DNA of 64,000 nt from Sphingobacteriaceae bacterium. GTDB taxonomy: Bacteria; Bacteroidota; Bacteroidia; Sphingobacteriales; Sphingobacteriaceae. Below, in pieces: positions 11,602 through 28,405 of the stretch. A program made the translations under genes and the position numbers. Every line of letters begins with the position of its first letter. Position 1 is the first letter of the stretch. The notes below the pieces were generated by a model that saw only the letters and a list, made by a program, of their open reading frames with translations, ran no database searches and was not told the DNA's origin. Where the stretch lies: the NCBI GenBank assembly GCA_903642215.1, contig CAHJWG010000003.1:1-64000 (forward strand), in the 5' to 3' direction.

Positions 11602-12624
11602 TTACTTCAATTTAAAAAAACCGGCAGTTGCTGTATCGGTAACTATTCCGTTTTTTTTATGGTAGATGAAGTAGGCCTGCAAAAAGGTGTGATGTTTTAA
11701 AAATTTCAAGGCATTGGTTAAACCCATTCCAATCAGTACGTTATCGTATCCATCGGCTGTAATTGCATCTTTTGCCTTTACCGTTACGGCTATCAGTTGA
11801 TTTTGTACCGGATACCCCGTTTTCGGATCAATGGAATGAGAAAATACCTTATCACCCTCCTTAAAATACTTTCGGTAATTACCTGAAGTTGTTATTCCTC
11901 CATTGTCCATTTTTACCACTTTTTGGATAACCGGTTCATCCTGTGCGTTTTTGGCAGGCCCTTCAATACCAACCTGCATCGTTTTATTTTCCGGCTGCTT
12001 TTTTCCTTTTACACGCAATTCTCCGCCTACTTCAACCAAATAATTTTTAATTTTCTTTTTGTTAAAATATTCAGAAATTACATCAACAGTATATCCCTGT
12101 GCTATTCCATCGACATCAATTTGTACACCGGGGATTTTTTTTGATAGTTTATTATCCTTCAACAACAGTTTATCAGAGCCAACGTAAGGAAGTATTTGTT
12201 TAATGGTTGCAGCATCCGGTAAGCCGCTTATTTCTTTATTGCTAAACCCCCAGGCCCGTACCAAAGGGTATACTGTAATATCAAATATTCCGCCTGATTT
12301 TTTATAAATCTCTAAAGATTTTTTTACAACTTTTCGTAAATGTTCATCCATAATAACTTCCATACAAGCCGGGTTATTGAATTTACTGATGAGCGAGTAA
12401 GGCTTGTAAACCGAAAGGGAACTGTCGATTTTATTTAAGATTTCTGTTATTTCCTGCTTGCGGACAATGCTGTCTTTGGCATAGTAAGTTAGGTGATAAG
12501 TTGTACCCTGCGTGTAACCATTTATATAGATTGGTTTGAAATTTGACTGTGCAAAAGCTACATTTATACAAACTACCAGGTAATTAATCAGGATCAGAAC
12601 AGCAGCTTGGTAACTTGTTTTCAT
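11602..12624 (-). CDS. apbE: FAD:protein FMN transferase (ApbE family)
   Basis: This 340-residue protein has a signal peptide (about 1-26, ending AFAQS) and the ApbE fold. The key motif DVDGIAQGYTVD is at 170-181, GGITTSGNYRKYF is the FAD-binding Thr/Ser region, and HSIDPKTGYPV is the late conserved loop. ApbE proteins use FAD to attach FMN covalently to Thr of partners such as NqrB/NqrC/RnfG in the periplasm. No such partner gene is in this window, so its target is elsewhere. It is a single gene with tRNA-Pro downstream. A dispersed repeat element sits 38 bp upstream of its start. Confidence 0.93.
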   Translation of the reverse strand: MKTSYQAAVLILINYLVVCINVAFAQSNFKPIYINGYTQGTTYHLTYYAKDSIVRKQEITEILNKIDSSLSVYKPYSLISKFNNPACMEVIMDEHLRKVVKKSLEIYKKSGGIFDITVYPLVRAWGFSNKEISGLPDAATIKQILPYVGSDKLLLKDNKLSKKIPGVQIDVDGIAQGYTVDVISEYFNKKKIKNYLVEVGGELRVKGKKQPENKTMQVGIEGPAKNAQDEPVIQKVVKMDNGGITTSGNYRKYFKEGDKVFSHSIDPKTGYPVQNQLIAVTVKAKDAITADGYDNVLIGMGLTNALKFLKHHTFLQAYFIYHKKNGIVTDTATAGFFKLK

Positions 12625-13793: not shown

Positions 13794-14810
13794 TTAAAAC
13801 TGCCCGTCCCGCTCCTGGAAATGGGTGGGTTTACTAATTGTCCTGCCGCCTGCATTTACCCATGCCGCTAACAGCTCCATCATCATTTTTAACGTTGTTT
13901 TTGGATAACCGAACAAACGGAACGCCTCGGCAGCGTTGCTTAATAGTGCCGTTGGCTGTTCCTCATTCACAAACTCCGGGGTTGTGCCAAACATTTTGCC
14001 AAACTCAACAGCAAGCCATCTTACCGATATGGTTTCCGGGCCTGCAATGTTCAGGATTTTAACCGGCACGGTACAATGGTGTAAAGCTCTTAAAGCCATT
14101 TCATTTGCATCTGCCTGCCATATAACGTTAACATTCCCCATACGTAAATCAATAGGCTGCTGATGCTTCACCGCTTTGGCAATTTCCAGTAATACGCCAT
14201 AACTCACATCATTAGCATAATTTAACCTGTAAATTAAGGTTGATGTATGCTGTTTCAAAGCATAATATTGAAATATTCGTTCTCTTCCGAGGCAAGATTG
14301 CGCATACTCACCAATTGGCTGCACCGATAAATTTTCGTCTGCGCCGCCCATTCCAACTGATGTTAAGGGATAAACATTGCCTGTTGAGAAAACTACGATG
14401 TTAGAAGATTTATATTTTTGGGCAATCCTGCCTGGTAAATAAGCATTCATTGCCCAGGTAAAGGATTCATTTCCGGTCGTTCCGAATTTTGTGCCGGCAA
14501 GGTAAATAACGTTTTTAACATCCGGAAGATGCTGTAATTCTTCATCATTTAATAGATCAGCCTTGTAAGTTTCGATGCCTGCCAACTCTAAATCATGCTG
14601 CAAACCGGTTTCAGAAAACCTTGAAACCCCAATCACCTTTTTTTTGATGCCGGCAATGTCTAACGCGTTTTTGGCAAGCCGTGCCAAATCCGGCCCCATT
14701 TTACCGCCTACGCCAAGTATAAGGATATCGCCGTCCAAAGCTGCAAGGTCGGCAATCAAAGCTGCAGAAGGTTTAAGCAGTTGACGGTAAACGTTTTCTA
14801 CATCTATCAT
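13794..14810 (-). CDS. NAD(P)-dependent epimerase/dehydratase (extended SDR) with altered catalytic site
   Basis: This 338-residue protein has the Rossmann GxxGxxG loop as GVGGKMG (33-39), and VIYLAGTKFG matches the strand-4 region of extended SDRs. The usual catalytic YxxxK is not intact: the aligned stretch is EYAQSCLGRER, with Y169 but Cys at +4 where Lys is expected. It may use another residue, or the alignment may be shifted. It sits 12 bp before the aldolase and 15 bp after the Nramp-like transporter gene, so the three are probably one transcript. A role in oxidising or epimerising the sugar acid that feeds the aldolase is inferred. Confidence 0.82.
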   Translation of the reverse strand: MIDVENVYRQLLKPSAALIADLAALDGDILILGVGGKMGPDLARLAKNALDIAGIKKKVIGVSRFSETGLQHDLELAGIETYKADLLNDEELQHLPDVKNVIYLAGTKFGTTGNESFTWAMNAYLPGRIAQKYKSSNIVVFSTGNVYPLTSVGMGGADENLSVQPIGEYAQSCLGRERIFQYYALKQHTSTLIYRLNYANDVSYGVLLEIAKAVKHQQPIDLRMGNVNVIWQADANEMALRALHHCTVPVKILNIAGPETISVRWLAVEFGKMFGTTPEFVNEEQPTALLSNAAEAFRLFGYPKTTLKMMMELLAAWVNAGGRTISKPTHFQERDGQF

Positions 14811-14825
14811 TATTGAAGAATTGAT

Positions 14826-16022
14826 TTATTTGAAAAAAATGGTAGTGAAACTTTGAAAGGCAAGGCCGGTAATAACGATCAGGCCGAGTGCACCTATTAT
14901 TTTAACGGTGATGCTATTTTTGTGTTCTTTCATCAGCGTTGCATCATTGGATATGATATACATGGCCAGCCCGATTAAAGGAACAATCAATATCGTTACG
15001 GTTTGCGCAAAGATGATGAGCTGTAAGGGGAGGCTTCCGAAAATAATGGCGATTGAAGTACCTATAATCATAATCAACGCAATCAGATAGCGCACGTTTT
15101 TTGAATTAAGCTGACTTCCTGCTCCAAAAGCATCTCCCAATAAAGTCCCTCCCACCGTAGCATTGCCAATAAGCGCAGAAAAAGATGCACCAAATAATCC
15201 GCATAAAAACAGTATGGAGGCGTACTTGCCAAATAATGGTTCCAAAGCTTTTGCCATGGCTGTTGCAGTTTGCACCTTTATCCCTGTTGGATGCAGCACT
15301 GCAGCGGCGCAAATAAGCACTATGGCACTCATGATACCCAATATAAATATACCTGTAAAACTTTTGTTGGTGTGTTTAATACCGGGTGATGCCCGCTTTC
15401 TTTCCTGTAATAAATAGGATTGATAAAAAGCACCCACGATAGAAAAACAGGATGCGATAAAAGCAATTACCAATGCCGAAGAACCCGGAGGAACAGACGG
15501 TACAAACCCGGCCGCTACTGCTGTTACCTGTGGTTTTACCAAAATTAGGGTTGTTAAAAAAGCCACAAGCATCACCGTAACAAGTAAAATCATGATCCGC
15601 TCGAGCACTTTATAAAAAGCCCTGAAAAATAGCAAACCTATACCGACAAGATTAAATACGATGATCCAGGGAACGGTTGACGTATGGAACATTTCGGACA
15701 TGGAAATACCAATGCCAATGGCGTTACCGGCCTGAAATGATGCGGTTACCAAAAATATCCCTATCCCTGCTGCAATACCGGCAAACCTGCCCCAACGTAA
15801 TTTTATCGTAGTAAGCAGCGACTGCTCGGTTGCTATCCCGATACGGGCGGCCATCGATGTAAAAGTAACCATGAAAATGATGGCAACAACCACGATCCAG
15901 AGTAAGGCAAAGCCAAAATCGGCACCGAGTTTGGAAGTTATCAGGATTTTGCTCGGCCCGAAAACTAACGCGGCAGTAATAATCCCGGGACCTAAAGACG
16001 AAAGGCGATCTTTTATTTTCAC
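14826..16022 (-). CDS. Nramp-family transporter lacking the metal-binding motifs
   Basis: This 398-residue polytopic protein has about eleven membrane helices and begins GPGIITAALVFGPSKILITS, which aligns with Nramp helix 1. The metal site DPGN is replaced by G-P-S-K at residues 22-25, so the ligand Asp and Asn are Gly and Lys. The helix-6 MPH motif aligns with the ungapped region SIVGAFYQS (about 194-202) and is also missing. It therefore probably does not move Mn/Fe. Its neighbours are an SDR, an aldolase and sugar oxidoreductases, so it may carry the organic substrate of that pathway; this is an inference. It is the first gene of the leftward set, with a paired repeat element 72 bp upstream. 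Confidence 0.85.
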   Translation of the reverse strand: MKIKDRLSSLGPGIITAALVFGPSKILITSKLGADFGFALLWIVVVAIIFMVTFTSMAARIGIATEQSLLTTIKLRWGRFAGIAAGIGIFLVTASFQAGNAIGIGISMSEMFHTSTVPWIIVFNLVGIGLLFFRAFYKVLERIMILLVTVMLVAFLTTLILVKPQVTAVAAGFVPSVPPGSSALVIAFIASCFSIVGAFYQSYLLQERKRASPGIKHTNKSFTGIFILGIMSAIVLICAAAVLHPTGIKVQTATAMAKALEPLFGKYASILFLCGLFGASFSALIGNATVGGTLLGDAFGAGSQLNSKNVRYLIALIMIIGTSIAIIFGSLPLQLIIFAQTVTILIVPLIGLAMYIISNDATLMKEHKNSITVKIIGALGLIVITGLAFQSFTTIFFK

Positions 16023-16234: not shown

Positions 16235-17449
16235 TTAACTGTTGTAGGAAGGTTTCCAGGTTTGCATTAAACCGGTATCCGCTGCCGTATTTCCCATATG
16301 GATAGCAATAGAAGTTTCCATAGCGGTTTCTACATTAGATATAGGCTTTTTATGATTAACTACACAATTAAAAAAATCTTGCAGGCAATAAGTTGTCGGC
16401 TCAAGGTTTGTACCATCTGGTTCCTCAAATTTCAGCTCGATGGGTTTACCTTGGGTTATAGCGGCGATGGTGGCCCCGGTAACGCCATCAACCGTACCTC
16501 TTTTATTTTCAAGTGATTCTGCATAGATAAACGCTTTGTCTCGCTGGATATCAACGGTAGCCCTATCGCCGAGGATGCGGATATTATACCCGTTATAGGC
16601 GTTCGACAGCACAGAGGTAACGCTCGATTTTACACCGTTTGGGTATTCGTAAATGGTACGGATATTATCATAAGTGTCCCTGCCGTCTTTCCAGTAATCA
16701 ATACCGCCTATCCCCGTAACTTTAAGCGGATGGCTGCCGAGCATATAATTAACCATATCTATCTGGTGGGCACACAACTCGGATAACGGGCCGCCGCAGT
16801 ATTCCCGGTACATGCGCCAGTTGATGGCTTTTTCCATTTTGGGGTCATTTAGGGGTTTCCGCCAGTTGGAATTTTGGTTATACTGGCATTCAAAATGGCT
16901 CACTTTTCCTAACCAGTTCTGGTCCATTACTTCTTTAACCCGTTTATATAAACCATAATAACGGTACTGAAAACCGATCTGAAAAACCAGCTTTGTATCA
17001 TTTACCCTTTTAACCAGATCAATAGATTGAGGGATATTAAATGTCATTGATTTTTCCAGGTAGATGTGTTTGCCGGCACTCAGCGCATCAACTGCTAAAA
17101 GATAGTGCGTGTAAAGCGGCGTGGCGATAATTACGGCATCAATGTTTTTGTCTTCCAGTAATTTTCTATAATCCGTATAAGCAACTGCACCTTTAGCGGC
17201 GTAGTTCATACCGGTTTTCAAATGCTCGGGGATAATATCACAACAAGCAACGAGTTCAATATCGGCCATATCTTTAATTAATATTGCCAGCCCCGTGCCT
17301 CTGGAACCTGTTCCGATAAGGCCAAGCCTCAGCTTACTGCTTTTAAATACGTTAGCCCCTAAAGCAGGCAAGCGCATGGCCGCAAGTCCGCCTACAGCTA
17401 CGGCACCTTTTGTTATAAATTTTCTGCGGGAGATTTGATTAGGTTCCAT
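16235..17449 (-). CDS. Gfo/Idh/MocA family oxidoreductase with Tat signal
   Basis: This 404-residue protein begins with a twin-arginine signal (SRRKFITKGAVAVGG, about 7-21). The Gfo/Idh/MocA NAD-binding domain follows, with RLGLIGTGSRGTG at about 41-53. The EKxxxxxx motif of the family is seen as LEKSMTFN, where Lys is catalytic in related enzymes. The C-terminal alpha/beta domain includes GGPLSELCAHQIDMVNYML. Such enzymes oxidise or reduce sugars and polyols, or act as glycosidases in some Tat-exported members, in the periplasm. It stops 29 bp downstream of a second, smaller member starting at 18501, and the two are probably co-transcribed. The substrate is unknown. Confidence 0.9.
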   Translation of the reverse strand: MEPNQISRRKFITKGAVAVGGLAAMRLPALGANVFKSSKLRLGLIGTGSRGTGLAILIKDMADIELVACCDIIPEHLKTGMNYAAKGAVAYTDYRKLLEDKNIDAVIIATPLYTHYLLAVDALSAGKHIYLEKSMTFNIPQSIDLVKRVNDTKLVFQIGFQYRYYGLYKRVKEVMDQNWLGKVSHFECQYNQNSNWRKPLNDPKMEKAINWRMYREYCGGPLSELCAHQIDMVNYMLGSHPLKVTGIGGIDYWKDGRDTYDNIRTIYEYPNGVKSSVTSVLSNAYNGYNIRILGDRATVDIQRDKAFIYAESLENKRGTVDGVTGATIAAITQGKPIELKFEEPDGTNLEPTTYCLQDFFNCVVNHKKPISNVETAMETSIAIHMGNTAADTGLMQTWKPSYNS

Positions 17450-17478: not shown

Positions 17479-18501
17479 TTAGCTCACTGTTTTCATCACA
17501 TCACTGATTTCTATAACTGCGCCGCCTTGTTTTTTGCTTTCGTCCGCAGCTTGCATAAAGGCGTAAATCTCCATTGTTTCTGCTGCAGGTACAGGTGATT
17601 TGCCGGTTTGAAAAAAACGTATTATGTCTCTCATTAATCCGTCAAACCCGTTTGCCGGCTGGATAGGTACCGTTGCTTTCTCCCCAAAAACAATCCCGCC
17701 GTAATCATGCGGGCCTGTCCTTGTGCCCCGGAAAGTACCCAGGCGGTTGCCCGGCCAGCTTCCGATCACAATATCCGTATTGGGGGTATAAATCCGGCGT
17801 ACTGTTTTGCATCCCGTTCCAAGTAAAGTGTACAACATCTCAACCCCGTGTATGCCGTACCAAAACAAATCGGTATGTGTTTTTTCTAATGTGGCAGGGC
17901 TGTAAGTATCAACCCCTAAAATTTCGCCGATCTGATCCGGCTTTAAGGCGTTGCGGTTTTCCATGTACCGCAAGGATGAAGCGGAAAATACCGGCAAATG
18001 ATAGCTATCGGCCATTTTAAAAATGGCTGCTACATCTTTTAAATCGGCGGCGAACGGTTTATCAATAAACATTCTTTTTCCTGATTTAAAAACCTGGATT
18101 GCCTGCCGGAGGTGCAGCCTGCCGTCGTTAGTATTCAGCATTACAACATCTACCATGCCCAGCAACTCATCAACAGAAGTTACAATCGTTACGCCAAGGG
18201 CTTGCACCTGCTTCGTAAATTCGGGTATCCTGCTTGTACTGGTGGCTATATCATTACTGCCTTTCGGATAGGCAGCTACTACTTTGTAACCGCCGTATTC
18301 TTTTGGTGCGTCAGGGGCGTTCAGCAATTTGGTAAATACAACACTGTGCGAAACATCAAGGCCGATGATCCCAACCCGAAGGCCCGACGGCCCGTTAAAT
18401 AATCCCATCCCTTCTGCCTGCTTTTCCATCCCGATTGTGATACCTGCAATTGCGGATAACCTCAAAAAATTTCTGCGGCTTAGCGGATCTGTCATATTCA
18501 A
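17479..18501 (-). CDS. Gfo/Idh/MocA family oxidoreductase with Tat signal (second copy)
   Basis: This 340-residue protein has a twin-arginine signal (LSRRNFLRLSAIAG, about 7-20) and a Rossmann loop RVGIIGLDVSHSV at about 42-54. The family motif appears as IDKPFAAD, with its conserved Lys and Pro. It is shorter than the adjacent copy and diverged from it, so the two are not recent duplicates. They lie 29 bp apart on the same strand and probably act on successive or related periplasmic sugar substrates. An inverted pair of the dispersed element begins 42 bp upstream of its start. Confidence 0.88.
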   Translation of the reverse strand: MNMTDPLSRRNFLRLSAIAGITIGMEKQAEGMGLFNGPSGLRVGIIGLDVSHSVVFTKLLNAPDAPKEYGGYKVVAAYPKGSNDIATSTSRIPEFTKQVQALGVTIVTSVDELLGMVDVVMLNTNDGRLHLRQAIQVFKSGKRMFIDKPFAADLKDVAAIFKMADSYHLPVFSASSLRYMENRNALKPDQIGEILGVDTYSPATLEKTHTDLFWYGIHGVEMLYTLLGTGCKTVRRIYTPNTDIVIGSWPGNRLGTFRGTRTGPHDYGGIVFGEKATVPIQPANGFDGLMRDIIRFFQTGKSPVPAAETMEIYAFMQAADESKKQGGAVIEISDVMKTVS

Positions 18502-18794: not shown

Positions 18795-20135
18795 TTATTT
18801 TAAAGTATTATAAATAACTGCACCTAAGGAATTAGTACCAACAGCATCATAATCTGCTGCCCAAAGATAAGCACCTTTAAAACCGTTAGCTTTTATGTAA
18901 GCTGCTTTTTTAGTTACCAGCGGCAAACCGTTAAAATAAACACCGCGGGCGATATCAGCTTTTTCTTTAGTTGCGTTGGCAGCGTTAGCAGCTATAATAT
19001 CTTTATAAGTGATGTAATCGTAGGACCCGTAGCTAAGATTATTACCGGCGGCATTTAACGTATTGTAACGCAAACCAAAAGCTGGTATGCCAACAACCAA
19101 TTTATTTGCGGGAAGATGAAAACTAGTCCAGATACCTGCTCCGGATACCATAAAATCATAGCTCGACGACTGGCCAACCGGTGCATCCGGGCCGATATGA
19201 ATATTATCCTCAAAAGCGTGGATATTTACCCAAGATGCAGCCGAAAGATTAGGATATTCCCAGTGCTGGTAATTTACGGGTGCAGTAACCGTAACGATGG
19301 CATTTGCCGGTAACGCCGCTTTAAGTGCCGTTAAAAACGGCCCGATAGCATGGATATTTAAAGGCGCACTGTCCGAGTTGATGTCCGTCATATAAATATC
19401 AACACCATCCATTTTTTCGGCAGCTACGTATGCCTTTACCGAAGCTACAAGTTTAGCCATCGAAGCGGCATCGCGGATAGCTGTCCCGAAATCATTACTT
19501 TCATAAATTGCCCAGCCGTCAATACCGGAAAGGTGGCCGCTGATACCCATGATAACCGGTACGCCGGCAATATGCGCGCGTGCTACTATTTCATCAGCAT
19601 GTTGGGCTATAGTCCCTTTTGAAACATCAAGGCTGCCATCGGCAGATACTTTACCTACCTGATATTCCAGGTGCGTAATATTCGTCCATACTACGTTGGC
19701 AGCGGTACCGTCTTCGGTAAGGTTAGCTAATACAATGCTGGTAAATGGTTTAAAAGTATAGGTTGAGGGATTAACCAGTACCTTGGTTTGCCTCGATGTC
19801 GAATCACCGTTATAAGTGACATCAAGCTTGATTATATACTCGCCGCCGGCGGTCGGTTTAAAGGCAAACGCAGTATCTGAAGACATTTCTTTACCATTTA
19901 CCTTCCAGCTGATTTTTACTTTATTGGCAGGCGAAAACTGCAAACCGTTAAAATTTGCCGTTGCCCCTTCGTTGATAATCTGCGGTGCCGATAGTTTACG
20001 GAGGTTATCAAATATACGGGGGAAATAAGGATTAGCACTTTCCTGGCTTTTTACTTCATCCTTTTTACAACCTGTAAATATCATAAAGATAACCAGTATC
20101 AGTGCCGGTATTGAGGTATATTTAATCTTTTTCAT
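18795..20135 (-). CDS. GH18-like lipoprotein lacking the catalytic glutamate
   Basis: This 446-residue protein has a lipoprotein signal with lipobox Cys at residue 23 (IFTGC). An Ig/PKD-like beta domain follows (about 50-122), then a TIM-barrel with GH18 features (about 130-446). The GH18 motif DGxDxDxE appears as DGVDIYMTD at 243-251: the third Asp is Tyr and the Glu position is Thr. Hydrolysis by the usual GH18 mechanism is therefore unlikely. Its place after susC, susD and an active-type GH18 gene suggests a surface glycan-binding protein. A lectin-like role is an inference. It ends the leftward PUL-like set. Confidence 0.82.
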   Translation of the reverse strand: MKKIKYTSIPALILVIFMIFTGCKKDEVKSQESANPYFPRIFDNLRKLSAPQIINEGATANFNGLQFSPANKVKISWKVNGKEMSSDTAFAFKPTAGGEYIIKLDVTYNGDSTSRQTKVLVNPSTYTFKPFTSIVLANLTEDGTAANVVWTNITHLEYQVGKVSADGSLDVSKGTIAQHADEIVARAHIAGVPVIMGISGHLSGIDGWAIYESNDFGTAIRDAASMAKLVASVKAYVAAEKMDGVDIYMTDINSDSAPLNIHAIGPFLTALKAALPANAIVTVTAPVNYQHWEYPNLSAASWVNIHAFEDNIHIGPDAPVGQSSSYDFMVSGAGIWTSFHLPANKLVVGIPAFGLRYNTLNAAGNNLSYGSYDYITYKDIIAANAANATKEKADIARGVYFNGLPLVTKKAAYIKANGFKGAYLWAADYDAVGTNSLGAVIYNTLK

Positions 20136-20169
20136 CTTTTATTTTTTTAATCTTTTGTGTTGATCAATT

Positions 20170-21170
20170 TTAGTGTGATTTTATCTCTGCATTGATGGTT
20201 CCCAGTAACGAATTTGGCCCTTTTGCATCCTGCAGCAGTTGCCAGATCATAACACCGCCCGCGTTTCCAAGTGCCAGCCGGGTTTTATTTTTTATGGTTG
20301 GGATACCGTTATAATAAACAATACCGCCGCCGGTAACCGTTACCTGATCCTGATTTTCTGAACCGGGGTACGCCGCAATAATTGCCGAAAATGTAAGGAA
20401 GGCGCGTTAGTACCAAAGCCGTAGCCGTAAAAAGGTACTCCCAAGTTCAGCTTTTCTATGGCAATACCACGTGTACCGCTCCAATATGCCAAATCCTCAA
20501 CAGCCATTGTGTACGGAGAATGCTGGCCCGGATTCCTGGGATTCCACGGCCCGGTTTTATCGTATGACATAACATTGAGAAAATTAAAACCGGCTAATGC
20601 TTTATCAGAATAACTGGCAGCATAAACAGTGGCAATGGCAGCTGTGGTTAGCTTTCCTTTAGCTTTTAACAGGGCTGTCAAACTCGTAACAAATGATTCA
20701 TAATTACTATTGATCAGGCTTTGTTCAATATCTACATCAATACCGTCCAGGCTATTATCCTGGGTAAATTTTACCAGGTTGGCTATAACCTTTGCCTGCA
20801 TGGCCGGCTCCATCAACTTACTAAAATAAGCAGGAGGAGAACCGCCTGCTATAGCTGCAAGAACCTGTACTTTTTGATTATGGGCCATATTTACTACCTT
20901 TTGCAGGTTTGCATCGGCTGTAAAATTGCCATCTGCATCGGGGTTAATAAAAGCTATATTAAGATGCGTTATCTTACTCATATCAATCGCATTGACTTCA
21001 TCAAGCAGGTTTCCCTGATAAGGAAGGTAACCTACCACTTTAAATCTGGCTGTTGTGGTATTGTTACTATCAATGCCTTCTGCCTTAACCATGCTTTTTT
21101 TACATGCAACTATCGTTACTGTTGTAAAAAAGCCAAGTATTAACAGAATTTTATTTTTATAACTATTCAT
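20170..21170 (-). pseudogene. GH18 endoglycosidase/chitinase-like lipoprotein, frameshifted
   Basis: The open frame 21170-20340 gives 276 residues. It has a lipobox Cys at 23 (TIVAC) and a complete GH18 catalytic motif DGIDVDIE at 142-149. After residue 257 (FGTNAP) the frame turns into an Arg-rich tail. One base over, the sequence continues sensibly (FLTFSAIIAAYPG, then GGGIVYYNGIPTI and GGVMIWQLLQDA) to a TAA at 20170-20172. That is the expected GH18 C-terminal barrel end with its Trp. A one-base deletion near 20398-20404, in a CCTTCCTT repeat, explains this. It could be a real mutation or an assembly error. The active enzyme would cleave chitin-type or N-glycan GlcNAc linkages. Confidence 0.82.
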
Positions 21171-21194
21171 TTGTTTGTTATTTATAACCTATAA

Positions 21195-22775
21195 TTATTT
21201 ATCCCACCAAACATGTGCTGTCCAGGTATTATTACCACCAAGTGCCGCAATGGCTGCTGCAATGTTTGTCGAATTTTGTTCACGCTCGGTTAAAGGGTAC
21301 ACAAACCTTCGTGGTATGGTTGTAACGTCTGATTCGGCCGTTACGCCAGGTACCAATACCGGGAAACCTGTACGGCGCCAGGTAGAATATGCCTCGGGGC
21401 CATTCATCAGTTGTGCTAACCATATCTGGGTATCGATTTGCAGTAGCTCTTTACCCGGTGCAAGCTGGTTGCTCTGTTTAAAATTTTGTATTTCGGTAGC
21501 TGATAATGCAGGCCCGGTAGGGTAAAGTGCCAGTTGCTGGCAGGCTGCTTCCAATCCGTTTTCGTAATGCTGCCTGGCAGTACCGCCCAATGTTAAGCCC
21601 CAGCGCGTGTTGGCTTCGGCTAATAAAAATTCAACTTCGGCATACGTCATGTGGAAATATGGAGCGTCGCTGCGTACTATAAAATCAGCCAGCTGCACTT
21701 TTTGACCTCCGTTCGGAACAGACAGCGTACCACGGCCGGGATAATCAATGTTTATAGCTCCCAAAAAGTCATCATAATTGTATTTACCCGGCCCAACACC
21801 AATCAACCCTACCTGGGCTTTTACCTGTGCGGTAACATCAAGCCGATCCGTAAGTTTATCGGGGTTAACCCAATAATCCCTGGCTATATAATTTAAACGC
21901 GGGTCGTTAGAGCTTTTCATTACGTTAAGTAAAGTGTTGCAAATACGCGGACGCCCGTCGTCCTGATACTGGTTGATCCCTACCGATACGCCATTACCGC
22001 GAATTTCAGCATATCCGTTGGTTATATTATTATAATCCATTTTGCAGATATCGTTATTACCGGCAATCAGGCCTGCGTTAAAAGCATCCGTTGCTTCGGC
22101 TTTTGCAGTTGCGTCATCAATTTTAATTAACCGCATAGCCAGGCGCAAACGCAATGAATTGGCAAACTTTTTCCATTTAGCAAGATCGCCATGATAAAAA
22201 AGTTCAGTATTTACCGCGTCTTTTGATACATCGAGCTGGGCTGCAGCTGCTTTTAGTTCCTTAAAAAAATCAGCGTATATATCTTTCTGGGTATCAAATT
22301 TTGGCCGTATGGTACCTTCAATATACGCTTTACCTGCTTGGGTGTATGGAATATCTCCATACAAGTCAGTAAGCCGGGCAAACACGTAAACCTTCATAAT
22401 GCGGCAAATGGCATTTAGGTTGGGTTTGTCTGTTGTACGCACAACGGCATCAACAATGTTCAATACATCATTTGGGTATCCCAGTTCCCAAAGTTCGCTC
22501 ATGTATTGCCTGTTTTCAATATAAGCACTGCCATAGCGGGTATAATATGCGCCCCCAATTTGTTGTGCCATAGGCATAGTTAGTATAATGCTGGTACGTT
22601 CGTTAATGGTTAAATCGCCGCCAAAACGCAGCTCAACATAATTGAGCTGGTTAATTGGGTCAAGGTTGGCAGATTTAGTGGGATCGATATTTACATCTCC
22701 GAATTTTTTGCACGAAAACAACATTATTGGCATCAGGAGTGTAAGAATTGTATATTTATTTAAAGTTCTTTTCAT
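21195..22775 (-). CDS. SusD/RagB family glycan-binding lipoprotein
   Basis: This 526-residue protein has a lipoprotein signal with Cys at residue 22 (MLFSC) and belongs to the SusD family: an alpha-helical TPR-like fold, with LYGDIPYTQAG and YFHMTYAEVEFLLAEA as typical landmarks. It lies 29 bp after susC on the same strand. SusD proteins sit on the outer surface and act as a lid that hands glycans to the SusC transporter. The length is usual for the SusD/RagB group. Its partner genes are GH18-type, so the ligand is probably an N-acetylglucosamine-containing glycan; that is an inference. Confidence 0.94.
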   Translation of the reverse strand: MKRTLNKYTILTLLMPIMLFSCKKFGDVNIDPTKSANLDPINQLNYVELRFGGDLTINERTSIILTMPMAQQIGGAYYTRYGSAYIENRQYMSELWELGYPNDVLNIVDAVVRTTDKPNLNAICRIMKVYVFARLTDLYGDIPYTQAGKAYIEGTIRPKFDTQKDIYADFFKELKAAAAQLDVSKDAVNTELFYHGDLAKWKKFANSLRLRLAMRLIKIDDATAKAEATDAFNAGLIAGNNDICKMDYNNITNGYAEIRGNGVSVGINQYQDDGRPRICNTLLNVMKSSNDPRLNYIARDYWVNPDKLTDRLDVTAQVKAQVGLIGVGPGKYNYDDFLGAINIDYPGRGTLSVPNGGQKVQLADFIVRSDAPYFHMTYAEVEFLLAEANTRWGLTLGGTARQHYENGLEAACQQLALYPTGPALSATEIQNFKQSNQLAPGKELLQIDTQIWLAQLMNGPEAYSTWRRTGFPVLVPGVTAESDVTTIPRRFVYPLTEREQNSTNIAAAIAALGGNNTWTAHVWWDK

Positions 22776-22804
22776 CTTGTTCGTTCTAAAAATTAATAAC
22801 CCTG

Positions 22805-25800
22805 TTAAAATCTGAAGTTTAAGTTAAAGCCCCAACTTTTTCTTGATGGCAGTGAGCCGTACTCCAGCCCCTGCCCGTTACCATTGTTATAGTTTGAATC
22901 GGGGTCAACATTAGGAACGTTTTTATGGATAATAAAAGGGTTCCGGCTTACTACGGCAACCGTTAGTTCTTTAATACCCAGTTTAGCGGTGGAGCGTGCC
23001 GGGAAACGGTAGCTTAAAGTAATCTCCCGCATTTTAATGTAGCTTGCATCATAAATAAAAGGGGTAGCTACACCATTACCATCACTATAAAATTGCGACC
23101 AGTAGTTTGACGGATCAACCACAGTGGTGTTTTTAGTGTAGATGGGATCTCCGTTGGCACTTGTACCGGTTTGTACCACACCCTGCGGGGTATAACCCTG
23201 CATTTTACCCGCTGCACGCCAGGCGTCAACAGTCATCCCTGCGCTTTGGCGGTTCTCTTCTGATTTGATCCATTCAGCACGGCCGGGCAAGGTAGATACT
23301 TGGCTGCCGCGGATAATGGCAAACATATTAGTCATCGAGAACAGATCAGCACCATGCTTAATATCGATCAGAACACTTAAACCCCAGTTTTTGTATCGAA
23401 AATTATTAGTTAAACCACCTGTCCAGCTCCATGTTCCTTTACCCAATACAGTACGCTCGGCAGCTTGTTTTGGGGCCAGCGTTTGCGGGTCAAGTATAAT
23501 GTTGCCTTTCGGGTCGCGCAGATAATCAAACCCTAAAATAGCACCGTAAGGCGAACCCGGTTTAGCTACAACAGATACACCTAACCAGCGTGCATCCGAC
23601 AGCGAGAGGTAAGGGATTTCATCGGCCAATGATAAAACAGTATTGGTGTTTTTGGCAAAATTTACATTGATGTCCCAGCTAAAACTTTTAGTTTGCACCG
23701 GTGAACCGTTCAATGCAATCTCCACTCCTTTATTACCGATTACACCTGCATTAACCAATTGTTGGGCGAAGCCTGATGAAAGCGGAGCGGGTACCAGGTT
23801 GATCTGATCGCGCGATTTAGAATTATAATAAGATACATCCAGTCCTAACCTTTCACCAAAAAATTTCAGTTGCGTACCGATCTCGTATGATTTTGTACGG
23901 GTTGGTTTTAAATTCTTGTTAGGTAAAACAGTGCTTGCTATGCCTCCAACCGAAGTACCGTTAAAAGTTTGCGGGTACAGGTTGTAATTTAAATTTAAAA
24001 GATAAGGGTCTGTATCGTTACCTACCTCAGCCGCAGACAACCTTAATTTACCAAATGACAATATAGAATGATCGATCTTGAAAAAATCACTGAATACAAA
24101 GCTGGCGGCGGCCGACGGATAAACATAGCTGTTATTATTTTCAGGCAGTGTTGATGAAGCATCTTTACGTACACTGGCATCAAGATACAGATAGGATTTA
24201 TAACCGATGCTTAACAAAGAATACGCACCATTATTACGTTTGCGGTAGTGATTTTCAACTACTGATTTATCAGAAAAGCTGTTAGGGCTGATTACATCAG
24301 GAACATTAAGGTTGATAAATGTTGATGTAGTGCCCGGGTTATCAACCCTCGAAAAACTTGCACCAATCCTTAAAGCTAAATTGAGCGACGGGGTTACCTG
24401 CTTTTGGGCGGTAAGTAAAGCGTCGCCTTCGGTGGTACTTAATTTCTGAGCAGCCTGATCAAGTTCACCGGCTAAAGTACCTGGCGTGGTACGCGGACTA
24501 AATTTGCTATAATTTAAATACGTAAAATCTGTTGAAATACGGCCTTGTAAATTAAGCCAGCTGGTAATTACATAATTACCCTGCAGGTTACCGATAAACC
24601 TGTTTTTGGTAGTTTCATTTTTCATTTTATTAATTACCCAATATGGGTCTAAACGGTACTGGCCGCCGCCCCAATCAACATAATTACCTTCAGAATCTTT
24701 GTAACCATTTTTGAAGTAAGCCTGATCAACATTGTTTGCCAGGCCAACAAAAGCGTTGCCGATATTACCAGGGTCATCGGCCAGTGCAGGCCTGTTAACT
24801 ACATCTTCATTAAGGTACATTACCTTAGCCGATATGGTAACCTTACTACTGAATTTTGAGCTGCCGGTAAAGTTAAAAGTGCTGCGGCGCAGGTTGCTAC
24901 CCGGTACAATATCACGGCTGCGGAGGTCGCCTATTGATAAACGAAATGACGAAACATCATTTGAGTTGGCGAAAGCTATGTTATTGGTGGTTGTGGCCCC
25001 GGTGCGAAAAAAGTTATCGATATTATTTTTTACATTGCTGTAAGGCCGGTATTTGCCATCAAAGCCAACCACTTGTAAACTGGGGTCGAGCCTTGGGCCA
25101 AAGTTGTTAAAAAGTGTGTTTTTAGCCTGCGACGGATCCACAACTATCTGCTCGGCAGTGCCTTGCCCGTAAATATACTGGTAATCGTTATAGTGTGTAA
25201 GCTGGTTTTCTATTGATGTTGTGCTGTTTACCTCAATACCCAGTTCGCGTTTAGCGTTTCCTTTTTTAGTGGTAATCAATATTACACCATTACCTGCACG
25301 GCTACCATAAAGTGCTGATGCAGAAGGGCCTTTTAATACCGAAATTTTATCAATATCATCAGGATTGATGGCCGAAATGGCATCGCCAAAATCAAAACCG
25401 CCAGAGTATTTACCACCGCCTACCTGGCCATAGTTAGAGTTATCGATAGGAACCCCATCCACCACGTAAAGCGGTTGGTTATTGCCGGTTATACTGGTAT
25501 TGCCCCTGATAATTACCCTTGACGAACCGGCAGGGCCGCCGGCAGTACTGTTGATAATCAAGCCCGGTACTTTACCCGCTAAGGAATTAATTACATTTGT
25601 TTCACGCGCTTTTTTAAGTTCGTTGCCATCCACTTCGGCAGTGGCATAACCTAATGAGCGTTCTTCCCTTTTTATACCTAAAGCGGTTACAACAACGGTA
25701 TTCAGTTCAATAGATTTGGTTTTAAGGGTTATGTTTACCGTTTTAGCCTTATCAGTAGCAATAATGGAAGTAGTTTCATAACCGATCATGTTAAAAGTAA

Positions 25801-26317
25801 TGATATCACCATTGCTAACCGGTATTACAAAGCTGCCGGTTTCGGTACTGGCTGCAGTGCGGCCTTTAGTAGTATTAACAATGGTTACGCCGGGCAGCGG
25901 TAAATTCTGATTATCAGTAACCCGGCCTGTTAAATTAAAATCATCTGCTATTTGTGATGTTACCTTAACAGCTGGTTTTTGTGATTGGATCATCACGGTT
26001 TCGCCAACGATTTTGTATTGAACACGCAGTTCTTTAGCAATCATGTTAATTACCTGCTGCAGGCTTTGCCCGTTAACCATTAGGCTGATCTTTTTTTGAA
26101 GGTCGATATCCTTCGGGTTGTATGAAAAATGTACGTTAGCTGCTTTTTCAACCTGCGTAAAAACAGCTGGCACGGGCGTATTTTTCCAGTTGAATGAATA
26201 CGCTGCGGATGATGATGACTGCGCGTGCCCGGATAACGATAAGACAAGCAATACCGACGGGATTATCCGCATCAGTATCCATAATCGTAATTTTGGGTAA
26301 GGTAATGGTTTTTGCAT
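22805..26317 (-). CDS. SusC/RagA family TonB-dependent outer-membrane transporter with STN domain
   Basis: This 1170-residue protein has a signal peptide and an STN domain at about 48-112 (VFTQVEKAANVHFSYNPKDI). The latter is the N-terminal extension that contacts a FecR anti-sigma factor. A CarboxypepD-reg-like domain (about 125-205, LTGRVTDNQNLPLPGVTIVN), a plug (about 215-350, LNTVVVTALGIKREERSLGYA) and a 22-stranded barrel follow. It ends in Phe (FNLNFRF). The STN domain and the adjacent fecR and ECF sigma genes mean it both imports a glycan and signals its presence across the envelope. It pairs with the SusD gene just downstream. Confidence 0.96.
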   Translation of the reverse strand: MQKPLPYPKLRLWILMRIIPSVLLVLSLSGHAQSSSSAAYSFNWKNTPVPAVFTQVEKAANVHFSYNPKDIDLQKKISLMVNGQSLQQVINMIAKELRVQYKIVGETVMIQSQKPAVKVTSQIADDFNLTGRVTDNQNLPLPGVTIVNTTKGRTAASTETGSFVIPVSNGDIITFNMIGYETTSIIATDKAKTVNITLKTKSIELNTVVVTALGIKREERSLGYATAEVDGNELKKARETNVINSLAGKVPGLIINSTAGGPAGSSRVIIRGNTSITGNNQPLYVVDGVPIDNSNYGQVGGGKYSGGFDFGDAISAINPDDIDKISVLKGPSASALYGSRAGNGVILITTKKGNAKRELGIEVNSTTSIENQLTHYNDYQYIYGQGTAEQIVVDPSQAKNTLFNNFGPRLDPSLQVVGFDGKYRPYSNVKNNIDNFFRTGATTTNNIAFANSNDVSSFRLSIGDLRSRDIVPGSNLRRSTFNFTGSSKFSSKVTISAKVMYLNEDVVNRPALADDPGNIGNAFVGLANNVDQAYFKNGYKDSEGNYVDWGGGQYRLDPYWVINKMKNETTKNRFIGNLQGNYVITSWLNLQGRISTDFTYLNYSKFSPRTTPGTLAGELDQAAQKLSTTEGDALLTAQKQVTPSLNLALRIGASFSRVDNPGTTSTFINLNVPDVISPNSFSDKSVVENHYRKRNNGAYSLLSIGYKSYLYLDASVRKDASSTLPENNNSYVYPSAAASFVFSDFFKIDHSILSFGKLRLSAAEVGNDTDPYLLNLNYNLYPQTFNGTSVGGIASTVLPNKNLKPTRTKSYEIGTQLKFFGERLGLDVSYYNSKSRDQINLVPAPLSSGFAQQLVNAGVIGNKGVEIALNGSPVQTKSFSWDINVNFAKNTNTVLSLADEIPYLSLSDARWLGVSVVAKPGSPYGAILGFDYLRDPKGNIILDPQTLAPKQAAERTVLGKGTWSWTGGLTNNFRYKNWGLSVLIDIKHGADLFSMTNMFAIIRGSQVSTLPGRAEWIKSEENRQSAGMTVDAWRAAGKMQGYTPQGVVQTGTSANGDPIYTKNTTVVDPSNYWSQFYSDGNGVATPFIYDASYIKMREITLSYRFPARSTAKLGIKELTVAVVSRNPFIIHKNVPNVDPDSNYNNGNGQGLEYGSLPSRKSWGFNLNFRF

Positions 26318-26389
26318 ATGGTTTTGGTTTTGAATAGTTTAAAAATCTGGACACAATATGTTTAAATAAATTTTATGGATAAATCTTAG

Positions 26390-26487
26390 ATGCTTCTTTT
26401 ATCACCTAAAAAACGTTACCCCCGCTACACTTTTTCTATTTATATTGATAGATGTAAAAGCAAAATTTACAGGCATAAAAGAAGCAT
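26390..26487. repeat. Inverted pair of the dispersed element (98 bp) containing a possible susC promoter
   Basis: The left end is ATGCTTCTTTTAT (26390-26402) plus CACCTAAAAA. The right end is ATTTACAGGC plus ATAAAAGAAGCAT (26475-26487). The orientation is the same as at 16094, with an unrelated centre. On the minus strand the centre holds GGGGGTAACG (about 26414-26423), a possible ECF-type promoter element for susC, whose start lies about 100 bp away. That promoter reading is tentative. Confidence 0.8.
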
Positions 26488-26528
26488 CATTCATCCTGCT
26501 GCTATAAATTAAACAGCCTGCAACGCTT

Positions 26529-27587
26529 TTAAAATTGTAACTGCACGCTATTACCGGTTTGTTTGTAAGTAAAATGATTGGTAAAACCGATGGCATCCAA
26601 TATTTCCGTAAGCTCTTTCCCTGTAAATTCACCAGTAAAAGATAGATCATCTGCTGCTTTATCTTTCGCAATCACATCCACACCGTAAACAGTTTTCAGT
26701 TTAGCTGCTATCTCCTTCAGGCCGGCACTTTTAAATATTAGTTTCCTATCTATCCAGTTTTGCAGGTCTTTAGCGTAAAAAGTAGTTTGGGTAAAAGCCT
26801 TGTTGCCATTATATAAAGCCGCTTTTTGACCGGGAACGAGCGTAATATCCTCCACTTTTAGATCGGGCTGTGTGCTTTGTACCTTAACTTTTCCTGTTGA
26901 TAACATTACACTGGCAACCTTTGCATTACTGTAACTTTCTACCTTAAAAGAAGTACCCAAGGCAGTGGTTGCTGTTTTGCCGGTAATCACTACAAACGGT
27001 TTGTGTTTGTTTTTGGTAACCGAAAAGAAGGCTTCGCCGCTTAATAACAGGTGGCGGTTGCTGGCATTGTAATCGTTAGCTATTTTTAACGTGCTTAATC
27101 CGTTGAGTAATACCAAACTGCCATCAGGTAATTTGATTAATTTACGGTGGCCAAAATCTGTTTTCCCTATCAGCTTATAATTGGCATCTATAGCAGCACT
27201 GTACAATTCGGCACCGCTTGGGTAATTATTACCCATTTGATAAAGGGCAAATACGCCTGCCGCAACAAGCAAAGCGGCTGCAAAGGCAACCCATTTGGTA
27301 AAGTAATTGCGGATACCGATAATGCTGCCTTTAACCGGTTTAAACTCACCCTCCGCACTGATAGTATTTTTGATGCGCTCCAGGGCAACGGCTTTTTCGG
27401 CAGGGCTTATCTTGATATTCAGCAACAGGCAAAGTTCACGGGCTTCGTTTACTTTCTGGTTCAGCTGCGGGTTTTCGGCCAGGATATTTTCCCACTTGGC
27501 AACTGCAGCATGGTCGTCATTATAGCAGTAAGCGATGAAGCTGTCGTCTGTTAAAAAATCTTCTATTTGGTGTAAAGAATAGTCCAT
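26529..27587 (-). CDS. FecR family anti-sigma factor
   Basis: This 352-residue protein has a cytoplasmic anti-sigma part (about 1-85) and one membrane helix near 92-110 (KWVAFAAALLVAAGVFALY). A periplasmic FecR domain follows (about 130-235, FGHRKLIKLPDGSLVLLNG), then a C-terminal DUF4974/STN-like domain (about 270-350). It restrains the ECF sigma factor until the SusC transporter reports substrate. It is transcribed divergently from the sigma gene (194 bp between starts) and points at susC. The more common order is sigma-fecR in one operon, so the divergent arrangement is slightly unusual. Confidence 0.94.
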   Translation of the reverse strand: MDYSLHQIEDFLTDDSFIAYCYNDDHAAVAKWENILAENPQLNQKVNEARELCLLLNIKISPAEKAVALERIKNTISAEGEFKPVKGSIIGIRNYFTKWVAFAAALLVAAGVFALYQMGNNYPSGAELYSAAIDANYKLIGKTDFGHRKLIKLPDGSLVLLNGLSTLKIANDYNASNRHLLLSGEAFFSVTKNKHKPFVVITGKTATTALGTSFKVESYSNAKVASVMLSTGKVKVQSTQPDLKVEDITLVPGQKAALYNGNKAFTQTTFYAKDLQNWIDRKLIFKSAGLKEIAAKLKTVYGVDVIAKDKAADDLSFTGEFTGKELTEILDAIGFTNHFTYKQTGNSVQLQF

Positions 27588-27781
27588 TTAAAATATTTAT
27601 TGAAAATTTACACACAAGTGCAACAGATTATTCTTTTTTACCAATGTTTTTCCAAATAAATTTTACTTTTTATTTTTAAAATGTGTAATTATATTATTCA
27701 ATAAGTTACATTTAGCCTTAGTAATACTTTTTTGAAAGTAATTGCATCTACAAATCCACCATTAATTGCCAATTTTTTGAA

Positions 27782-28405
27782 ATGGAAGCATCAAAAACAG
27801 TGTTCGCTGGCCCTAAAAACAAAGACGTTAGTAAAAATTGGCAATTACTTGCAGAAGGCGACAAGCAGGGGCTTTACGAATGTTTTAATCTTTTTTATGA
27901 CGACCTGTACCGTTTTGGCCTTTCACTTTACAAAAATCCCGGGTTGGTTAAAGAAGGAATCAATAACTTGTTCCTGGAGCTTTGGAAAATAAAGCAGAAG
28001 CTGGCCGGTGTACAAAATATACAGCAATACACACTTATTATTTACAAACGTATCCTGTATAAAACCTACCTGCAATTATCAGAAGCAACCCAAACCAATG
28101 GTTTATTTGATAATATTTATATTGATAAAACCCTGAGTGAGCCATCGTACGAATCAATACTGATTGCCAGCCAGCATGATGAGCATAACAAAAAGCGGCT
28201 GCAAAAGGCACTTAATCAGTTAACACCCCGCCAAAAGGAAATTATCCGCCTGCGTTATTTTGATACCGTATCTTTTAAAGATATTGCCTGCCAAACCGGC
28301 CTGAGTGAGCGCACCGTTTACAACACCTTGCATAATGCCATTAAGATACTAAGGAGCGTGATCTGTGTTACCGTTATTCTTAATTTAGTCTTTTATAAAA
28401 AGTAA
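27782..28405 (+). CDS. RNA polymerase ECF-type sigma factor
   Basis: This 207-residue protein is sigma-70 family. Region 2 is at about 30-95 (LYECFNLFYDDLYRFGLSLY) and region 4 at about 140-195 (LTPRQKEIIRLRYFDTVSFKDIA, then helix-turn-helix LSERTVYNTLHNAI). It has a C-terminal hydrophobic tail. It probably directs transcription of susC/susD and is held by the FecR encoded divergently. I took the ATG at 27782 as the only start in frame with the conserved part. A hydrophobic C-terminus such as VICVTVILNLVFYKK is seen in some Bacteroidota ECF factors. Confidence 0.9.
   Translation: MEASKTVFAGPKNKDVSKNWQLLAEGDKQGLYECFNLFYDDLYRFGLSLYKNPGLVKEGINNLFLELWKIKQKLAGVQNIQQYTLIIYKRILYKTYLQLSEATQTNGLFDNIYIDKTLSEPSYESILIASQHDEHNKKRLQKALNQLTPRQKEIIRLRYFDTVSFKDIACQTGLSERTVYNTLHNAIKILRSVICVTVILNLVFYKK

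Follow-up and report, generated by a model that had tools for sequence, protein, structure and literature searches.

The Nramp-related gene at 14826–16022 of the window (the whole 64,000-nucleotide stretch of DNA analysed here) probably encodes a LeuT-fold secondary transporter for the import of a small organic anion, with a sugar acid or other oxidised sugar derivative as the likeliest substrate. Five observations bear on this reading: the fold, the loss of the metal-site motifs, a conserved trio formed with genes for an SDR-like protein and a DapA-family aldolase homologue, the co-occurrence of these genes among genomes, and the exchange of the transporter for other carriers in other phyla. 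The features concerned are as follows.

11602–12624, minus strand: ApbE (FAD:protein FMN transferase), downstream of the trio; PF02424
12708–13781, minus strand: DapA/NAL-family class I aldolase homologue, 357 aa; PF00701; no signal peptide seen
13794–14810, minus strand: SDR-like NAD-binding protein of the epimerase family, 338 aa; PF01370; no signal peptide seen
14826–16022, minus strand: Nramp-related transporter, 398 aa, GTG start; PF01566
15435–15443, minus strand: helix-6 break, S194-I195-V196 replacing MPH (from alignments and the break in the predicted model)
15948–15959, minus strand: helix-1 break, GPSK replacing DPGN, residues 22–25 (from alignments and the break in the predicted model)
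16235–17449, minus strand: Gfo/Idh/MocA oxidoreductase with an N-terminal twin-arginine (SRRKF) signal; PF01408, PF22725, PF02894
17479–18501, minus strand: second Gfo/Idh/MocA oxidoreductase with an N-terminal twin-arginine (SRRNF) signal; PF01408

An Nramp fold without the metal and proton motifs

The transporter matched PF01566 at 4.7e-67 (227 bits) in a profile search, and its best sequence match among solved structures was EleNRMT (1.4e-22). A structure prediction, suggested in an earlier note on this DNA, was made with AlphaFold2 from five natural homologues only (mean pLDDT 76, pTM 0.77) and gave an Nramp fold, with best TM-scores of 0.84–0.85 against the DraNramp and EleNRMT structures. 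Discontinuous helices 1 and 6 were retained in this model, with breaks at residues 21–22 and 193–194, which is where the ligand positions of the Nramp fold lead one to expect the metal-site residues. Alignment with the canonical Nramp of the same genome (L001) placed LVFGPSK (G22-P23-S24-K25) against YMDPGN in helix 1 and ASCFSIVG against ATVMPHN in helix 6, so that all four metal ligands (D, N, M and H) are replaced. The earlier note had read the change from DPGN to GPSK, the absence of MPH and the loss of the known metal-coordination motif from the sequence, and the alignments agree with it on each point. In addition, the acidic D and E of the helix-3 proton path are replaced by Q97 and N100, and the helix-10 glutamine (Q340) is kept at the position of the metal-contacting glutamine.

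The resulting site signature, GxxK-SxxS, in which S191 and S194 are invariant among 55 close homologues, differs from that of canonical Nramps (DxxN-AxxM) and from the published signatures of NRATs (DxxN-AxxT) and NRMTs (DxxG-TxxA/T) (PMC8806188), and no description of it was found in the literature searched. According to published work, every SLC11 protein, DxxG-type Mg transporters included, keeps the helix-1 aspartate, and mutating it cripples EleNRMT (PMC8806188); the window protein has a glycine where canonical Nramps, plant NRAT and Mg-transporting NRMTs carry this aspartate. Canonical Nramps (DraNramp, BfraNramp, L001) thus share the fold and the helix-10 glutamine with it, but the window protein departs from them in lacking DPGN, MPH and the acidic helix-3 residues, and its gene has no metal regulator as a neighbour. 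EleNRMT has the same fold as the window protein and likewise lacks the canonical ligands as well as most of the proton path; NRMT membership was nevertheless ruled out by motif, since NRMTs keep the helix-1 aspartate, whereas the window protein combines GxxK-SxxS with catabolic neighbours. Judged by its sequence, the protein is a member of the Nramp-related group, that is, a PF01566 protein without the conserved metal and proton motifs. This group has been described as paraphyletic and mostly uncharacterised (PMC12873925).

Paralogues, PxpT and the wider Nramp-related group

Three PF01566 genes were present in the genome. By inspection, the canonical paralogue L001 (DPGN, MPH) adjoins a DtxR/MntR-like regulator gene, and the third gene, L003 (G000:C11:131283-132266; GPGF), adjoins genes resembling pxpA and pxpBC of 5-oxoprolinase; L003 had no sequence link to solved structures at E 0.001. 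The genome therefore has an ordinary metal importer plus two non-DPGN relatives in catabolic operons. Homologues embedded in metal regulons would, according to the earlier note, have spoken against its reading; we searched the retrieved Nramp-related loci for a homologue of the DtxR-like regulator beside L001 and found none.

The closest functional precedent is PxpT, an Nramp-family protein required for growth of Corynebacterium glutamicum on 5-oxoproline, as established in 2026 by in-frame deletion and complementation (PMC13274462). Its homologue in Bacillus subtilis, YcsG, lies in an organic-acid (5-oxoprolinase) operon and was reported to import Mn (PMC10448178). Both resemble the window protein in belonging to the Nramp family and being co-operonic with enzymes of carboxylate breakdown, but their partners are PxpABC, whereas those at the window locus are the SDR-like protein and DapA homologue (plus Gfo). 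The window gene does not share an operon with pxpABC, as a PxpT/YcsG-type gene would. The pxp-linked proteins L003, L075 and L077, which stand for PxpT/YcsG by gene context only, have a GPG-type helix 1 and belong to different branches of the tree. Carboxylate uptake by an Nramp-family protein is already genetically supported through PxpT, and the idea is not wholly new; what is new here is a second, separate link of the Nramp scaffold to organic-acid catabolism, with a GxxK-SxxS site. Our search of the openly available literature turned up no publication on the Nramp-SDR-DapA trio.

Across the wider group, motif and neighbours broadly agreed in a small and uneven sample. In the related clade, a Neorhizobium Nramp-related gene (L106, 36%) adjoined a different DapA-family gene, and haloarchaeal genes on Haladaptatus and Natrononativus plasmids (L107, L108) were found close to genes for heparinase II/III, sulfatase, amidohydrolase and Gfo/Idh/MocA proteins. 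The same clade includes a GPGS protein (L007, 4805–6052) flanked by MttB-like and MtaB-like methyltransferase genes, neighbours that suggest another class of organic substrate. A second group (L109, L122) was linked to hydantoinase/oxoprolinase genes. By contrast, a DPSG protein (L111) was near two CorA genes and a DPGN protein (L116) adjoined a metal-dependent regulator; some records, such as L110, had uninformative neighbours.

Conservation of the Nramp-SDR-DapA trio

The trio occurred in 52 of 62 Bacteroidota loci with Nramp homologues, mostly from the family of the window genome, and as these loci are related the counts overstate independence. The SDR gene was found in 53 and the DapA gene in 52 loci, on the same strand, the order was nearly always Nramp-SDR-DapA, and gaps were mostly −1 to 37 bp. 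Neighbour labels are profile matches of cluster representatives, with ORFs called mechanically. In the window, exactly 15 bp (14811–14825) separate the Nramp and SDR genes and 12 bp the SDR and DapA genes; coordinates and Pfam matches confirmed the neighbourhood given in the earlier note (an SDR 15 bp away, a DapA-family aldolase and two Gfo/Idh/MocA genes nearby).

Among 251 genomes of the family, DapA was present in all 53 with the Nramp and in 11 of the 198 without it (Fisher p 7.8e-44, a value that ignores genome relatedness and so means only "not chance"); a class-wide DapA search added no further genomes among 295. A chance neighbourhood was ruled out by the conservation of the trio together with this co-occurrence, albeit among related genomes, and the tie to catabolic enzymes proposed in the earlier note is borne out.

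The flanks of the trio varied by locus and included SusC/SusD, Gfo/Idh/MocA, M20 amidohydrolase, BNR_4, GH20, enolase-superfamily, NagA-like, NagB-like and AGE-like genes. A GSDH gene with a cytochrome c gene lay near the Nramp gene in 37 loci, mostly directly upstream of it, and most of the GSDH proteins examined start with a lipoprotein-like signal; thirteen of these loci encode separate MFS or SSF carriers. The cluster of the 16235–17449 Gfo protein was close to the Nramp in 14 loci and that of the 17479–18501 protein in 19. Amino-sugar genes were found in 19 loci and an enolase-superfamily protein in 7, and a galactonate dehydratase scored above the curated cut-off in L069, with the same cluster in two further loci (3 in total). 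ApbE, possibly co-transcribed with the trio in the window, also lies behind it in locus L071, although its link to the trio is weak.

Exceptions came from genus g21, where an SDR-DapA pair occurs with an enolase-superfamily gene and no adjacent Nramp, and where in two genomes (L046, L048) the Nramp instead adjoins NagA-, NagB- and MFS-type genes. The carrier is therefore not bound to one enzyme set, and its substrate may be shared or variable. In L074, the trio is reordered as SDR-DapA-Nramp, which together with the Neorhizobium gene next to a DapA-family gene points to a recurrent link.

Other carriers fill the same slot in other phyla

Plasmids from Bacillota, Actinomycetota, Pseudomonadota and Planctomycetota also carry the SDR-DapA pair (47–64% identity to the window DapA). 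We examined 11 annotated records outside Bacteroidota for transporters, and an organic-solute transporter was near the pair in nine of them: carbohydrate ABC systems in Paenibacillus, two Streptomyces and Glaciihabitans, a tripartite tricarboxylate transporter in Nitratireductor, other ABC systems in Tistrella and Sulfitobacter, and MFS carriers in Rhodococcus and Prescottella. None of the 11 had an Nramp near the pair. The Nramp thus occupies a slot held elsewhere by organic-solute carriers, and because unrelated carriers swap around a fixed enzyme pair, this is the strongest evidence here that its cargo is the organic substrate of the enzymes.

The same evidence bears on whether the protein still imports divalent cations (Mn or Mg) through an altered site, serving neighbours such as Mg-dependent enolase-superfamily dehydratases or ApbE. 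The Nramp fold and Q340 are compatible with such a role, true Mg-type relatives exist (the DPSG protein beside CorA in L111), and YcsG/MntG overexpression raised cell Mn, with MntR binding its promoter (PMC10448178). However, the four core ligands are gone and a lysine sits in the site, Schiff-base aldolases and SDRs require no metal, the same slot in other phyla holds organic-solute carriers, and the retrieved loci have no regulator like that of the canonical paralogue. We therefore consider metal import unlikely.

A late origin of the lysine

All 51 GPSK proteins formed one clade (100/99) in a tree of 80 rows, in which several deep branches are long and of unsure order, and K25 was invariant in 51 of 51 members. 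GPGS proteins (L061, then L005/L072/L073) branch just outside this clade and already have the trio, and L074 (GPGT, 39% identity), on another branch, also has the trio genes. Because these GPGS and GPGT relatives share the trio, we read the lysine as a later refinement: by this phylogeny, GPSK appears to have arisen once, late, within a trio-bearing family. The lysine as the defining feature, or as the basis of the association, was ruled out on the same grounds. The tree and neighbour comparison proposed in the earlier note thus gave a divided answer, as the neighbours of the GPSK clade are indeed the trio, but the trio is also present in non-GPSK relatives. Its suggestion that the lysine would fit a carboxylate is not supported if the lysine is taken as the ligand that sets the function.

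K25 is dispensable for the partnership, but it may modulate binding or serve as a built-in cation. In ApcT, a transporter of related fold, a lysine is thought to replace the coupling cation; by analogy, K25 could pair with the substrate carboxylate or could equally replace a coupling cation. A broader proposal is that organic-anion carriers (for sugar acids, 5-oxoproline and other carboxylates) make up a large part of the Nramp-related proteins that are of neither DPGN nor DxxG type, and that the GPSK lysine, at the position of the metal-ligand Asn, offers the substrate carboxylate a fixed positive charge; this is a tentative idea towards which we do not lean.

Enzyme partners and a proposed pathway

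The window DapA homologue aligns to N-acetylneuraminate lyase, and its Schiff-base lysine (K178) and active-site tyrosine (Y150) are each at least 93% conserved across 61 homologues. The SDR-like protein retains the nucleotide loop but has an incomplete YxxxK pair: Y169 is kept, and in place of the lysine the window protein has C and the tabulated homologues of each phylum have C, T or V, leaving the predicted chemistry of this protein uncertain. SDR-like proteins without the YxxxK lysine form a family, represented at about 60 loci, that Bacteroidota share with Bacillota, Actinomycetota, Pseudomonadota and Planctomycetota; its almost constant partner is a DapA-like protein with the unusual motifs H[ST]TQF, GNDD and GLLGHW.

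Transport itself and which way it runs are inferred in what follows, as are the ion coupled to it, the exact substrate and the sequence of enzyme steps. Sugars released outside the cytoplasm would be oxidised in the periplasm, in this window by the Tat-exported Gfo/Idh/MocA enzymes (the 16235–17449 protein is probably periplasmic, given its signal) and at the 37 other loci by the lipoprotein GSDH-cytochrome c dehydrogenase. The oxidised product would then cross the inner membrane through the Nramp-related carrier, to be acted on in the cytosol by an enolase-superfamily dehydratase, where present, and the SDR-like protein, before a DapA-type aldolase would cleave the 2-keto-3-deoxy acid. Outside oxidation, import and inside aldol cleavage make a coherent sequence since the SDR and DapA proteins lack signal peptides and the Gfo and GSDH proteins have twin-arginine and lipoprotein-like signals, respectively. 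Within the carrier, the former metal site between broken helices 1 and 6 would have been rebuilt from neutral hydrogen-bonding residues (Q97, N100, S191, S194, Y200, Q201, N287 and Q340), to which the GPSK clade would have added K25. A comparable role is known for OngIT, an SSS-family transporter of the oxidative chitin pathway, which imports GlcNAc1A (the GlcNAc aldonate) over the inner membrane to cytosolic enzymes (PMC9537276), although it belongs to another transporter family and feeds other cytosolic enzymes. GlcNAc aldonate itself was rejected as the specific substrate: amino-sugar genes are present in 19 loci but galactonate dehydratase in others, and one fixed substrate is unsupported.

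Import of a neutral sugar or amino sugar (e.g., GlcNAc or a keto-sugar), followed by cytoplasmic oxidation, would suit the GH18 gene upstream in the window, the GH20 and NagA/NagB-like genes at related loci, and the invariant site residues of the homologues, which are mostly neutral. Yet the extracytoplasmic dehydrogenases near the Nramp in 37 loci suggest that oxidation precedes uptake, the MFS or SSF carriers in thirteen of those loci offer a possible route for neutral sugars, and the precedent PxpT serves a carboxylate; we find this reading quite improbable. That the protein is an exporter or a sensor-like pathway accessory is very improbable: sequence gives no transport direction and some SDR-DapA operons have no Nramp, but the conserved discontinuous helices 1 and 6 of the predicted model argue for alternating access, cytosolic enzymes that act once oxidation has taken place in the periplasm depend on import, and in other phyla importers with binding proteins often occupy the corresponding slot.

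For organic-acid import, the gene context of sugar acids and sugars (galactonate dehydratase, enolase-superfamily, GSDH, GH20 and NagA/NagB-like genes) counts in favour; counting against it are the retention of Q340, the report of YcsG as a Mn importer, the g21 pair without an adjacent Nramp, and an SDR without the usual catalytic lysine. A transporter repurposed for an organic substrate, as the earlier note had it, is the most economical reading of these genes, and the sugar acid or anionic substrate that it named is plausible from the neighbours, but its argument from the lysine to a carboxylate is unsupported in the form given. If organic-acid carriage is true, many proteins that databases call "Nramp family divalent metal transporter" are misannotated, and the family becomes a direct test case for the shift of a single scaffold between inorganic cations and organic anions. 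Being conserved, the trio offers a genetic handle on the substrate, bears on the dispute over YcsG (5-oxoproline or Mn), and points to an uncharacterised SDR-DapA catabolic pair in at least five phyla.

Upstream of the Gfo genes, the window holds a SusC/SusD-like pair, GH18 genes and a FecR-like/sigma-factor-like pair (18795–28405, assigned partly by inspection), a region that may supply sugar to the trio. One GH18-like gene in it (20340–21170, minus strand) is apparently frameshifted, with an early end of frame and a plausible GH18 C-terminus encoded in the adjacent frame; either a genuine lesion or an error in sequencing could account for this.
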